A stretch of DNA of 64,000 bases. Origin: Clostridia bacterium (GTDB lineage Bacteria; Bacillota; Clostridia; Christensenellales; Aristaeellaceae). The position numbers were made by a program, and so were the translations under genes. This document shows, piece by piece, positions 356-34,091 of this stretch. The DNA is taken from assembly GCA_017463245.1 (NCBI GenBank), contig JAFTPN010000082.1, forward strand, positions 32,012 through 96,011. Direction: 5' to 3'. The first letter of the stretch is position 1, and each line of letters begins with the position of its first letter. Below the pieces are notes generated by a model, which saw only the letters and a list, made by a program, of their open reading frames with translations, was not told where the DNA came from and searched no databases.

Positions 356-1390
356 ATGGCTAAGGTTATTACTTTCGGTGAAATCATGCTCCGTCTGAAG
401 TCCCCCGCTTACGAGCGTTTCTTCCAGTCCCCCGCCCTGGAGGCCACCTTCGGCGGCGGCGAGGCCAACGTGTCTGTGTCCCTGGCCAACTATGGCATGG
501 ATACCAGCTTCGTGACCGTGCTGCCCAAGAACGACATTGCTGAGGCTTGCATCCGCGAGCTGCGCGGCTTTGGCGTGGACACCACCAAGATCGTCCGCGG
601 CGGCAACCGCGTGGGCATCTACTACCTGGAGACCGGCGCTGTGCAGCGTCCCTCCAAGGTGATCTACGACCGTGCTGGTTCCGCTATCGCTGAAGCCAAG
701 CCCGGCGACATCGACTGGGACAAGACCCTGGAAGGCGCCACCTGGTTCCACTTCACCGGCATCACTCCCGCCATTTCCCAGGGCGCTGCCGACCTGTGCC
801 TGGAAGCCCTGAAGGCCTGCAAGGAGCGCGGCATCCACGTTTCCTGCGACCTGAACTACCGCAAGAACCTGTGGAAGTACGGCAAGCGTGCCGACGAAGT
901 GATGACCGAGCTGGTGAAGTACGTTGATACCGTGATCGCCAACGAGGAAGACTTCCAGAAGGCTCTGTGCCTGAAGGCCGAGTCCCAGGCCGACGTGGAA
1001 GAAGGCGAGCTGAACATCGACAACTACAAGGCCATCGCCTCCCTGGCCATGGAGACCTATCCCAACATCAAGCGCGTGGCCATCACCCTGCGCGAAAGCA
1101 AGTCCGCCAACCACAACGACTGGCGCGCCTGCCTGTACAATGGCAAGGACTTCTTCCTCTCCCGCAAGTACAGCATCACCGATATCGTTGACCGCGTGGG
1201 CGGCGGCGACTCCTTCGGCGGCGGCCTGATCTACGGCCTGAACAACTACGACAACGAGCAGGACGCCCTGGAGTATGCCGTGGCTGCTTCCTGCCTGAAG
1301 CACACCATCATCGGCGACTACAACCGTGTGTCCGTTGCCGAAGTGGAATCCCTGATGAAGGGTTCCGGCAATGGCCGCGTGCAGCGCTAA
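356..1390 (+). CDS. kdgK: 2-keto-3-deoxygluconate kinase, PfkB family
   Basis: This 344-residue protein is a PfkB/ribokinase-family sugar kinase that phosphorylates 2-keto-3-deoxygluconate, the common intermediate of glucuronate and galacturonate breakdown. The N-terminal substrate-binding glycines are visible (FGGGEANVSVSLA), as is the C-terminal ATP/anion-hole motif with the catalytic aspartate (VGGGDSFGGG near residue 285). The ATG at 356 is chosen because AAGGAGG lies 8 nt upstream; an in-frame extension further upstream overlaps the aldolase gene and is not credible. Context with eda supports the substrate: uxuA and uxuB, which make KDG from fructuronate, lie at 34-37 kb. A strong terminator follows at 1421. 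Confidence 0.88.
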   Translation: MAKVITFGEIMLRLKSPAYERFFQSPALEATFGGGEANVSVSLANYGMDTSFVTVLPKNDIAEACIRELRGFGVDTTKIVRGGNRVGIYYLETGAVQRPSKVIYDRAGSAIAEAKPGDIDWDKTLEGATWFHFTGITPAISQGAADLCLEALKACKERGIHVSCDLNYRKNLWKYGKRADEVMTELVKYVDTVIANEEDFQKALCLKAESQADVEEGELNIDNYKAIASLAMETYPNIKRVAITLRESKSANHNDWRACLYNGKDFFLSRKYSITDIVDRVGGGDSFGGGLIYGLNNYDNEQDALEYAVAASCLKHTIIGDYNRVSVAEVESLMKGSGNGRVQR

Positions 1391-32331: not shown

Positions 32332-33251
32332 AGCGTCTTGAACAACTGCCGGAGATCACCGATAAGGCTCTGGGAGGCCTGACGGCCGGGCAACACCTGA
32401 AGCTCCGTATCGAGAAAGCCGCCGTCAATCCTGCTCCCCAGCGCCGCCGCACCTCAGCCTGGGTGCCTGCGCTATCCTTCGCGCTGGTGCTGGCGCTGGC
32501 TCTGGGCATTGGCATTCCCGCCCTCAACGCCCAGCCCGATCAGCCCCTGATCACCACCCAGGCCGCCGGTACCAATGGCGTGGGCAACGAGATCAGCCTG
32601 CTGGATCTGAACAACGGCGTCAACATCCGTCAAAGCGGCGAAAAGCCCAGCTATCGCAGCCTGTGGGCCAATGGCGATGGCGGCAGCTTCCCCCTCATCG
32701 GCATTCAGGGGCGCTACTACCGCATGATGTCCAGCCCGGATTCCGTCAGCAGCAAGCAGCTGGGCAGCAGCCTGGGCACCGTGGCCGAGTTCACCACCGA
32801 GCCTTCCCTCTCCGGCACCGATATCGTTTTGTCCAACAAGGTTTCCCAGGGCAGCGAGGTCTATGCCATCAAGGGTATGGACACCACCCTGGTGGCCGCC
32901 GAGGTGGGTGGCAGCTATCGCCTGTTCCAGCGCGTGAGCTTCAACGGCAGCGCCCTGCGCGGCAGCGAAGACCTGGCCGATACCCTGCAGGTCGCCGGCC
33001 GCATCCAGAGCATGGAGCTGAGCGACGTGGGCGTCATTACCGACAGCGCCACCTGCGAAGCCCTCTTCTCCACGCTGACCTCCTGCGCCAGCTATGAGAG
33101 CAGCGGCTCCATCAGCGCCAAGCAGTCCCTGCTGATCCACCTGAACAATGGCCTCACCGTGCAGCTGGCCGTGAAAAACGACAAGCTGGCCGCCTGCGGC
33201 ACCTGGAGCTGTCCGGAATTCTTCGAGGAATTCGAAGCAGCAGTGAACTAA
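32328..33251 (+). CDS. Probable membrane anti-sigma factor
   Basis: A 307-residue protein with a short cytoplasmic N-terminus of about 45 residues, one membrane helix (about residues 46-66, WVPALSFALVLALALGIGIP) and an extracytoplasmic domain of about 240 residues. It overlaps the sigma gene by 4 nt and has AAAGGAGG upstream of its GTG start, so the two are co-translated. Role is inferred from this arrangement. The zinc-binding HxxxCxxC motif of many anti-sigma factors is absent, and no known sensor domain is recognised. Confidence 0.7.
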   Translation: MKRLEQLPEITDKALGGLTAGQHLKLRIEKAAVNPAPQRRRTSAWVPALSFALVLALALGIGIPALNAQPDQPLITTQAAGTNGVGNEISLLDLNNGVNIRQSGEKPSYRSLWANGDGGSFPLIGIQGRYYRMMSSPDSVSSKQLGSSLGTVAEFTTEPSLSGTDIVLSNKVSQGSEVYAIKGMDTTLVAAEVGGSYRLFQRVSFNGSALRGSEDLADTLQVAGRIQSMELSDVGVITDSATCEALFSTLTSCASYESSGSISAKQSLLIHLNNGLTVQLAVKNDKLAACGTWSCPEFFEEFEAAVN

Positions 33252-33289
33252 CAAAAATGGAGTGACCTGAAGGTCACTCCATTTTTGTT
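33250..33289. terminator. Strong bidirectional terminator
   Basis: An 18-bp perfect stem (33250-33267 with 33272-33289), loop TGAA, ending in a run of five Ts. Confidence 0.9.
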
Positions 33290-33290
33290 A

Positions 33291-33326
33291 GAATTCGGAA
33301 TTCGGAATGCGGAATTCGGAATTGAG
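33291..33326 (-). repeat. GAATTCGGAAT-type repeat, inverted copy
   Basis: The reverse complement of this stretch contains ATTCCGCATTCCGAATTC, the core of the 31-bp repeats at 33363 and 34051. With the copy at 33363 it can form a hairpin. Confidence 0.75.
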
Positions 33327-33362
33327 TTACCGTACCGATTCACACACCGGAACACAAACTAC

Positions 33363-33393
33363 ATTCCGCATTCCGAATTCATAATTCCGAATT
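33363..33393 (+). repeat. 31-bp direct repeat, left copy
   Basis: Begins ATTCCGCATTCCGAATTCAT and continues for 31 bases. It matches the copy at 34051-34081 with a single mismatch and overlaps the stop codon of the acetyltransferase gene. Confidence 0.85.
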
Positions 33394-33829
33394 ACTTTAC
33401 GTACACCGGCGTTTTGTTCTTCGCCACCATGCCATCCTCCCTTCGGTAGCCATGCTTCAGGTAGAAGCGTTCCGCCGTGTCGCTAGTCAGGATCATCTTG
33501 TGGATGCCCTGCCGGGCGAAGAACGCCTCCGCCTGCGCCAGCAGTTCCGCACCAATGCCCTTGTTCCGCTGTTCCGGTGCCACCCAGAACTCCCGGATGA
33601 AACCGTACCTGTCCTCAAAGAACCAGCTGGTCATTTCAATTCTGCTGAACATGATGAACCCGATCACCTGCCCGCTTTCATCCTCCCGCAGCAGGGTAGG
33701 CACACCCTCGTCCGTCATTCCTGCAAAGAGGCCTTCCCAGTTGCTTACCTGTATGCCCATTTCCGTAAAATACGCCCGGAACGCCTGCTGAAATGCCTGA
33801 TCGTTGTACTCTCTGATCAACTTATCCAT
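33392..33829 (-). CDS. GNAT family N-acetyltransferase under leader control
   Basis: A 145-residue Gcn5-related acetyltransferase that moves an acetyl group from acetyl-CoA to an unknown amine. The acetyl-CoA loop is visible as APEQRNKGIGAELLAQ near residue 90, followed by the C-terminal FYLKHGYRRE motif. The ATG at 33829 has AAAGGAG 7 nt upstream. Transcription starts near 33995, passes through an 18-codon leader peptide, and must cross an intrinsic terminator (33853-33883) before reaching this gene. That design is known for drug-resistance and amino acid genes, so an antibiotic or other translation-affecting compound may be the inducer; this is inference. The whole unit is enclosed by a 31-bp direct repeat. 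Confidence 0.85.
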   Translation of the reverse strand: MDKLIREYNDQAFQQAFRAYFTEMGIQVSNWEGLFAGMTDEGVPTLLREDESGQVIGFIMFSRIEMTSWFFEDRYGFIREFWVAPEQRNKGIGAELLAQAEAFFARQGIHKMILTSDTAERFYLKHGYRREDGMVAKNKTPVYVK

Positions 33830-33852
33830 ATGTTATCTCCTTTTGCGGCAAC

Positions 33853-33883
33853 AAAAAAGTATGCTCCGGCAAAAGAGCATACT
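33853..33883 (-). terminator. Intrinsic terminator (attenuator) in the acetyltransferase leader
   Basis: On the minus strand a 9-bp perfect stem (33875-33883 with 33858-33866), 8-nt loop, is followed by six Ts. It lies 24 nt upstream of the acetyltransferase ATG and after the leader peptide, so it would stop read-through transcription unless disrupted. Confidence 0.85.
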
Positions 33884-33915
33884 GAATTTCTCCCGTCACA
33901 AAAGGCCGTGCTGCC

Positions 33916-33972
33916 TTATGCAGCCCTGTGTGAACGGCAGATCGCTCCCTCCCGGATGAAACCAACAACCAT
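33916..33972 (-). CDS. Leader peptide (18 residues)
   Basis: A short frame, MVVGFIREGAICRSHRAA, with an exceptional ribosome site: AAGGAGGTGA (33978-33987), a ten-base match to the 16S anti-Shine-Dalgarno, 5 nt before the ATG at 33972. It begins about 23 nt after the predicted transcription start and ends in TAA at 33916, 33 nt before the attenuator stem. Sequences around and after it can pair (CCGT-T-CACA, within the peptide frame, with TGTGACGG near 33892-33899), so ribosome position could change the fold. No run of one amino acid codon is seen, which argues for drug- or stall-mediated sensing rather than amino acid attenuation. Confidence 0.65.
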   Translation of the reverse strand: MVVGFIREGAICRSHRAA

Positions 33973-34001
33973 ACCGCTCACCTCCTTCATATGATGGTAT
34001 G

Positions 34002-34030
34002 ATTATACAACAAAAAAGAATTCACGTCAA
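34002..34030 (-). promoter_or_regulatory. Promoter of the leader-acetyltransferase unit
   Basis: On the minus strand, TTGACG (34025-34030), a 17-nt spacer and a perfect TATAAT (34002-34007). One of the strongest promoters in the window, which fits control by attenuation rather than initiation. Confidence 0.85.
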
Positions 34031-34050
34031 CCCATGGAGCCACACTCTCA

Positions 34051-34081
34051 ATTCCGCATTCCGAATTCATCATTCCGAATT
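34051..34081 (+). repeat. 31-bp direct repeat, right copy
   Basis: Identical to 33363-33393 except one base (C for A at position 21 of the repeat). The two copies enclose the leader and acetyltransferase gene, about 690 bp apart. Confidence 0.85.
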
Positions 34082-34091
34082 CAAAAAAATC

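Follow-up and report, generated by a model that had tools for sequence, protein, structure and literature searches.

What controls the acetyltransferase gene that lies behind a short reading frame and an intrinsic terminator in this clostridial DNA? The original prediction, made on the window (the whole 64,000-nt stretch analysed here), was that a leader peptide governs the gene by attenuation. Comparison with other genomes identifies a conserved leader family that is absent from Rfam 15; the family is real, and its kind is already known. Its full terminator/antiterminator logic can be read from the sequence, and it precedes GNAT-family acetyltransferases of three lineages in three clostridial families.

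Architecture of the leader

The whole leader-GNAT unit reads on the minus strand, from 34030 to 33392. The promoter, the 18-codon frame, its ten-base Shine-Dalgarno (SD) match and the terminator upstream of the GNAT gene, all named in the original prediction, were located there among the following elements.

34002-34030, minus strand: promoter, TTGACG (34030-34025), 17 nt, TATAAT (34007-34002); 11 of 12 consensus bases
33987-33978, minus strand: leader SD, AAGGAGGTGA, a 10-nt match
33972-33916, minus strand: leader ORF, 18 codons plus TAA, peptide MVVGFIREGAICRSHRAA
33930-33981, minus strand: P2, proposed anti-antiterminator hairpin, 33981-33964 with 33946-33930
33910-33924, minus strand: P3, small hairpin at the leader stop codon (GCTGC-ATAAG-GCAGC)
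33944-33956, minus strand: leader strand of the antiterminator, codons 6-10, including CCGG and GGAGC
33865-33878, minus strand: terminator-side strand of the antiterminator (terminator 5' arm and loop)
33853-33883, minus strand: intrinsic terminator, hairpin 33883-33858 (10 pairs, including a single G-T) and T tract
33887-33905, minus strand: 5' strand of P4a, starting with the anti-SD CCTTTTGTG (33905-33897); partner 33857-33839
33837-33847, minus strand: end of the P4a 3' strand and GNAT SD AAGGAG (33842-33837)
33392-33829, minus strand: GNAT-family acetyltransferase, 145 aa, ATG at 33829 (PF00583)

The predicted 9-bp stem AGTATGCTC/GAGCATACT is present; the first of the six Ts assigned to its tail belongs to the stem, so five Ts follow it.

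Taken singly, these motifs prove nothing, because their counts are at chance level: scans of 6 kb found one consensus promoter (shuffle mean 1.6) and five consensus terminators (shuffle mean 4.9). An ordinary terminator beside a small ORF of chance origin, with no regulation, would agree with these scans, but loci of three GNAT lineages conserve the leader and show covariation in it, which makes that reading scarcely credible. Conservation in other genomes settles, at the level of sequence comparison, that leader and terminator are real. The fold of 33820-33995 has a computed energy of -67.5 kcal/mol against a shuffle mean of -47.6 (sd 3.67; z -5.4), and none of 200 shuffles was as good. The promoter recurs as well: in a scan of 15 loci run without a chance control, 14 have a best match of 9-12 of the 12 consensus bases, the -10 element ending 28-31 nt upstream of the leader ATG.

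Distribution of the leader family

A DNA search of 308 family genomes returned matches in 64 at E ≤0.1, of which 12, the window's genome included, are the leader; a clear gap separates the leaders (E ≤9.8e-10) from the rest (E ≥0.0027). The genome from which the window comes holds a single copy. A degenerate pattern run against a named genome collection found 13 stretches, 11 true and two by chance. The 11 true loci come from MAGs labelled Clostridia or Clostridiales; for ten the label gives the gut of a goat, sheep, roe deer or water deer, and for one it gives no source.

RNA models extended this set. Among 395 genomes of the order, 23 had a match at E ≤0.01, six of them strong, which added L069 and L070; among the 308 family genomes there were 15 strong matches and four weak ones judged to be chance, adding L101; and in 391 genomes there were three strong matches, including the window's own, and one weak, adding L107 and L108, which belong to two further families within the class. 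Searching relatives of G1037 (140 and 1 genomes), G874 (21) and G436 (11) added only L111. The total is 17 loci in 17 genomes, 11 beyond the window's found by DNA search and five by the RNA model; the genome sets overlap. L071 and L111 stand outside the 17. L009, near-identical to L010, was left out of alignments A3 and A5 and of the 15-sequence set, and L011/L068, where the contig ends before the gene, out of every alignment. Further candidates (L037, L042, L072-L088, L103-L106, L109, L110 and L112) were read individually and judged to be chance. In a different family, L071 (match 1113-1257, minus strand) has a small leader ORF, MKTYLSVIGSNAVSRVRTR, a terminator and a possible antiterminator ahead of another GNAT, of 314 aa; from its sequence it looks like a distant cousin, with a weak model score.

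Against Rfam release 15 the window stayed below all gathering thresholds (best 19.9 versus 46 bits), and five homologous loci gave tRNAs only. In the literature text searched, which excludes subscription papers and preprints, no comparable leader upstream of a GNAT appeared among the matches listed, and the string GAICRS was absent. The plasmid and phage collections gave no match to the window leader or the window GNAT, the plasmids none to the L069 leader, and the viral contigs none to two leader patterns; a pattern from the GNAT alignment gave four matches in the viral contigs, none a relative. Carriage on these mobile-element collections was therefore not found.

RNA structure and covariation

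The predicted fold comprises P2, in which the leader SD and AUG pair with codons 9-15, P3 around the stop codon of the leader, and an extended hairpin topped by the terminator, with P4a at its base sequestering the GNAT SD. Folding with the ribosome-covered bases masked revealed the antiterminator, in which leader codons 6-10 (CCGG...GGAGC in the window) pair with the terminator 5' arm and loop. The antiterminator, the covariation of P2 and the SD-sequestering stem go beyond what had been reported for the locus. An alternative antiterminator, built from the leader start and the terminator 3' arm, was rejected by eye, as it fails in L018, where the terminator has changed and the leader has not.

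The antiterminator recurs with altered letters, as UUCGGGAA/UUCCCGAA in L108 and CCAAAAGAGA/UCUCUUUUGG in L107. When pairing partners were swapped between loci, none of 20,000 permutations was as good as the true antiterminator pairing with nine representatives (of 12) and none with 11 (of 15); across the 11 clade representatives the corresponding numbers were 0 for P4a, 0 for the terminator and 13 for P2, against 19983, 7776 and 3012 for three control pairings, counts that are not probabilities because the loci share ancestry. The antiterminator's own partner exceeded the mean of the others in ten of the 11. With shorter segments it ranked only 7th of 12 for L010 and 5th for L014.

The five pairs of the antiterminator core are formed in 96.4% of cases in a MAFFT alignment of 12 sequences, versus at most 58.3% when slid, and their covariation score was reached by one of 500 shuffles; two of five measures did not rise above shuffles (double-change pairs, 64/500; pair types, 90/500). 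For P2 and the terminator together, 97.9% of cells are paired in the 12-sequence MAFFT alignment (0/500 shuffles; slid, at most 47.2%) and 96.9% in a model-fitted alignment of 15 sequences (13 double-change pairs; slid, at most 48.2%), with pair types not above shuffles in either (131/500 and 55/500, respectively). In the 15 sequences, P2 cells are paired at 94.7% and terminator cells at 100%. Support for P3 is weaker: of the 15 rows, 13, 14 and 10 retain its three consensus pairs, respectively. At the level of these alignments, comparison establishes the parts, their conservation and their near-constant geometry, and P2, the terminator, P4a and the antiterminator covary while the three control pairings do not. 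The window's R13 residue is altered in L014, L069, L107 and L108 while the P2 core remains paired; therefore the RNA helix itself is selected.

The leader reading frame

The leader ATG and stop are in place in all 15 aligned sequences (stop TAA in seven, TGA in eight), the ORF spans 17-18 codons in all 15 loci, and the stop lies 59-68 nt from the T tract. The ten-base leader SD is invariant in 11 rows of alignment A1 and shorter (CAGGTGA or CAGGTGG) in L069, L070, L101, L107 and L108. The original interpretation is supported in part; leader-peptide attenuation before a GNAT gene, its core, is well supported by comparison, since start, stop and terminator are conserved, the promoter recurs and the antiterminator covaries.

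One alternative would make the ORF incidental and the RNA a riboswitch, with the loops of P2 and of the terminator joined in a pseudoknot that binds a ligand. The outer stem of P2 and the antiterminator do cross, so that a pseudoknot is possible and the two might partly coexist as one; folding without any ribosome gives at least five expected antiterminator pairs in 11 of 15 truncated leaders; and L111 keeps the RNA despite a broken frame. We nevertheless regard a riboswitch as unlikely, as start and stop are retained, the stop as TAA or TGA though adjoining bases vary, leader lengths change by whole codons, the ten-base SD match persists in those 11 rows, and no Rfam riboswitch matches.

L111 is the exception to the frame's conservation: it retains the RNA shape, but its peptide frame has shifted and lacks the usual stop. 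Decay or mis-assembly of this copy may be the reason, or the peptide may be unimportant; L111 is outside all counts and is entered here as evidence against a peptide-specific reading. The L111 leader precedes a 319-aa two-domain GNAT.

In a codon table of 12 representatives (of the 15 sequences), Cys, encoded by TGC or TGT, always occupies position -7 and Ser always position -5, with R, H or C at -6 and no codon run. Both constant codons are paired in P2, that for Ser with the SD region itself. A motif, R-x-G-A-I-C-R-S, was considered as pure peptide conservation and dropped, being mostly within P2 or antiterminator strands. By the terms of the original prediction, homologous loci without a conserved leader peptide would have refuted it; that check was run and did not overturn it, although much of the conservation lies in RNA-paired strands.

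These constant residues are what favours an amino-acid attenuator, in which scarce charged tRNA for Cys, Arg or Ser would stall the ribosome on the conserved C-R/H-S codons. In the window, however, a ribosome awaiting Cys, Arg or Ser gives 0.0, 0.2 and 0.5 expected antiterminator pairs, an OFF state, and with a wider footprint 0.0, 0.0 and 3.7; some homologues reach 3-6 pairs at the Ser position. The variable -6 residue and the lack of a codon run also argue against it, the leaders do not have several codons for a sensed amino acid at the control position, and the genes controlled are GNATs, not biosynthesis enzymes. Amino-acid starvation is disfavoured as the signal, and we judge an attenuator of this type very improbable. 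The last four leader codons have no amino acid common to the 12 representatives, which supports the earlier idea that the leader does not sense one particular amino acid.

An exact 15-nt repeat (33590-33604 and 33949-33963) was also noted, by which the leader codons for GFIRE recur in frame within the GNAT gene; on sequence grounds it may be chance or a trace of local copying.

Proposed switch mechanism

We consider it probable that the leader acts by ribosome-mediated transcription attenuation, with a layout like that of vmlR, and that a ribosome arrested close to the end of the leader turns it on. The sequence features sought for such an attenuator, namely a leader ORF, a terminator and a covarying, mutually exclusive antiterminator, were all found, as judged by comparison and predicted folds.

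In the proposed scheme, the strong promoter would yield a leader RNA carrying the 18-codon ORF. The default state would be OFF: P2 would cover the leader start and codons 9-15 and tie up codons 6-10 in its upper stem and loop, the terminator would then form and RNA polymerase would stop, and in any read-through RNA the GNAT ribosome site would be concealed in the enclosing P4a. A ribosome early in the leader would cover codons 6-10, leaving the switch OFF again. Codons 6-10 are free only after a ribosome has passed, and P2 is open only if its 3' arm is occupied, so both would happen only with a ribosome arrested at the stop codon or within roughly the final four codons. The freed codons could then seize the terminator 5' arm to form the antiterminator, whereupon transcription would continue and the GNAT site would be released. 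The leader would accordingly have to be translated, P2 would delay the antiterminator and the halted ribosome would be the trigger; we infer that what halts it is a compound acting on ribosomes, or a translation stress, which the GNAT would counter.

Equilibrium folding partly backs the predicted ON state. With transcripts that stop in the terminator loop, 13 of 15 leaders (footprint -12 to +15), or 12 of 15 with a footprint of -15 to +15, are expected to form four or more antiterminator pairs when the P site is at one or more of the final four positions; a P site eight or more codons before the stop leaves at most 1.5 expected pairs. Between these positions the homologues differ: in the window there is no antiterminator until the last four positions (narrower footprint), in L016, L069, L070, L101 and L107 it starts at least five codons before the stop, and in L012 and L017 it appears at no ribosome position. 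An early ribosome prevents the antiterminator in these equilibrium calculations, but leaving the leader free of ribosomes does not. Once the terminator is complete, termination is the favoured outcome at equilibrium in most leaders, the value falling below 0.6 at some late position in only five of 12. Because pairing is expected without a ribosome and the complete terminator is favoured at equilibrium, the ON state needs a particular folding order. Dependence on folding order is common for attenuators. When the antiterminator was enforced, the computed accessibility of the window GNAT SD rose from 0.00 in the OFF state to 0.95; it increased by at least 0.4 in nine of 15 leaders, hardly in L010, L016 and L108, and fell in L018, L070 and L107.

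The same architecture might instead serve as a general switch for translation stress, in which any late slowing of the ribosome turns the gene on without a special compound and the GNAT has a housekeeping or stress role. This is a possibility we take seriously while thinking it the less likely. The last four codons vary freely, and the toiL leader of E. coli is reported to respond to several antibiotic classes (PMC12121999). Against it, early positions are unproductive here, unlike in toiL, where many stall sites work (PMC12121999), and Cys -7 persists while its codon varies between TGC and TGT, which hints at arrest specific to the peptide, although this codon is also P2-paired.

Comparison with known attenuators

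Attenuation triggered by a halted ribosome, the reading we prefer, has several relatives, compared here by parts from excerpts of the source papers. In the vmlR leader of Bacillus subtilis, a ribosome held on the ORF allows the antiterminator to form (PMC9226507). The two leaders share a small ORF in an anti-antiterminator stem, a second small hairpin, an intrinsic terminator and an SD-sequestering stem. As described in that excerpt, vmlR controls an ABC-F protein rather than a GNAT, and uses NusG pausing with TTNTTT, a motif absent from all 15 leaders here; in addition, the SD stem encloses the terminator here, unlike in vmlR (PMC9226507).

In the msrDL leader of the streptococcal mefA/msrD locus, a ribosome halted at the leader stop lets polymerase pass an intrinsic terminator, as proposed here. 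That leader has six codons and is induced by macrolides, and the stalled ribosome itself obstructs the terminator, whereas the present leader has a separate antiterminator strand upstream (PMC10314930).

YjhQ, encoded in the E. coli topAI-yjhQ operon behind the toiL uORF, is presumably annotated as a GNAT, so a uORF before a GNAT-containing operon has precedent. In toiL, as proposed here, a short ORF serves as a ribosome-stalling sensor, but the system is Gram-negative, stalling at many positions unmasks the topAI ribosome site, and the excerpt available describes no terminator/antiterminator pair (PMC12121999). Leaders of amino-acid biosynthesis genes, such as Corynebacterium ilvB, likewise combine a terminator, a complementary antiterminator and a leader ORF; their ORFs are rich in codons specifying the amino acids that they sense (PMC11109978), and no such enrichment is seen here.

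The downstream acetyltransferases

The window GNAT matches Pfam PF00583 with E 7.8e-16 (58.8 bits versus a gathering score of 20.7), and the GNAT domain is also above the gathering score in L069, L107, L108 and L071. Among the 17 loci, Pfam was applied to the window, L069, L107 and L108, and GNATs at the other loci were called by alignment to one of these. A GNAT is the next gene after the leader in 16 of the 17 loci; in the 17th (G102) the contig runs out before any gene is reached, and another contig opens with a GNAT of the same family. Three lineages are represented: the window type at 13 loci (including G102 and L108, whose GNAT is 50% identical to that of the window), a 316-aa two-domain protein (L069, L070 and L101) and a 164-aa protein (L107). 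BLAST finds little similarity between the lineages (E 0.05, 0.010 and 0.007, as single comparisons). The leader is absent in three (L062, L063 and L064) of 15 family genomes with a window-type GNAT (E ≤1e-25), and L063 has two stops in the leader frame.

Seven of these GNATs, scanned as sets of four and three, fall far below the cut-offs of the NCBIfam drug-acetyltransferase models (in the set of four, 38.4 versus 125 for ArsN2 and 20.6 versus 300 for AacA34), L071 has no match to them, and the three GNATs searched against anti-phage defence families gave none.

The leader could, speculatively, be a portable sensor of failing translation termination: a release-blocking compound would hold the ribosome at the leader stop and turn on GNATs of different lineages, each inactivating such a compound from the gut community. 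We hold this to be a long shot. Some GNATs acetylate drugs of the amikacin and blasticidin S kinds, but aminoglycosides enter strict anaerobes poorly, which counts against a termination sensor. Amikacin (PMC10400623) and blasticidin S (PMC8287960) are both peptide-release inhibitors, as excerpts of these papers describe. Since the leader would report where a ribosome halts, a reporter could reveal the natural inducer and thereby the substrate of the GNATs.

Repeats lie around the unit. A perfect 21-bp inverted repeat (33248-33291), between the GNAT gene and a converging plus-strand gene (307 aa, no Pfam match), is probably a terminator for both strands. The leader-GNAT unit is flanked by ATTCCGAATT-type repeats (33284-33393 and 34041-34089), comprising a 41-nt direct pair (88%) and an inverted pair of 43 nt (84%). 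All seven copies of ATTCCGAATT in the window, where 0.02 would be expected, lie around this unit. A 26-nt form of the repeat (up to two mismatches) is dispersed, with 42 matches in the window's own genome and occurrences in nine of 18 genomes of the genus.
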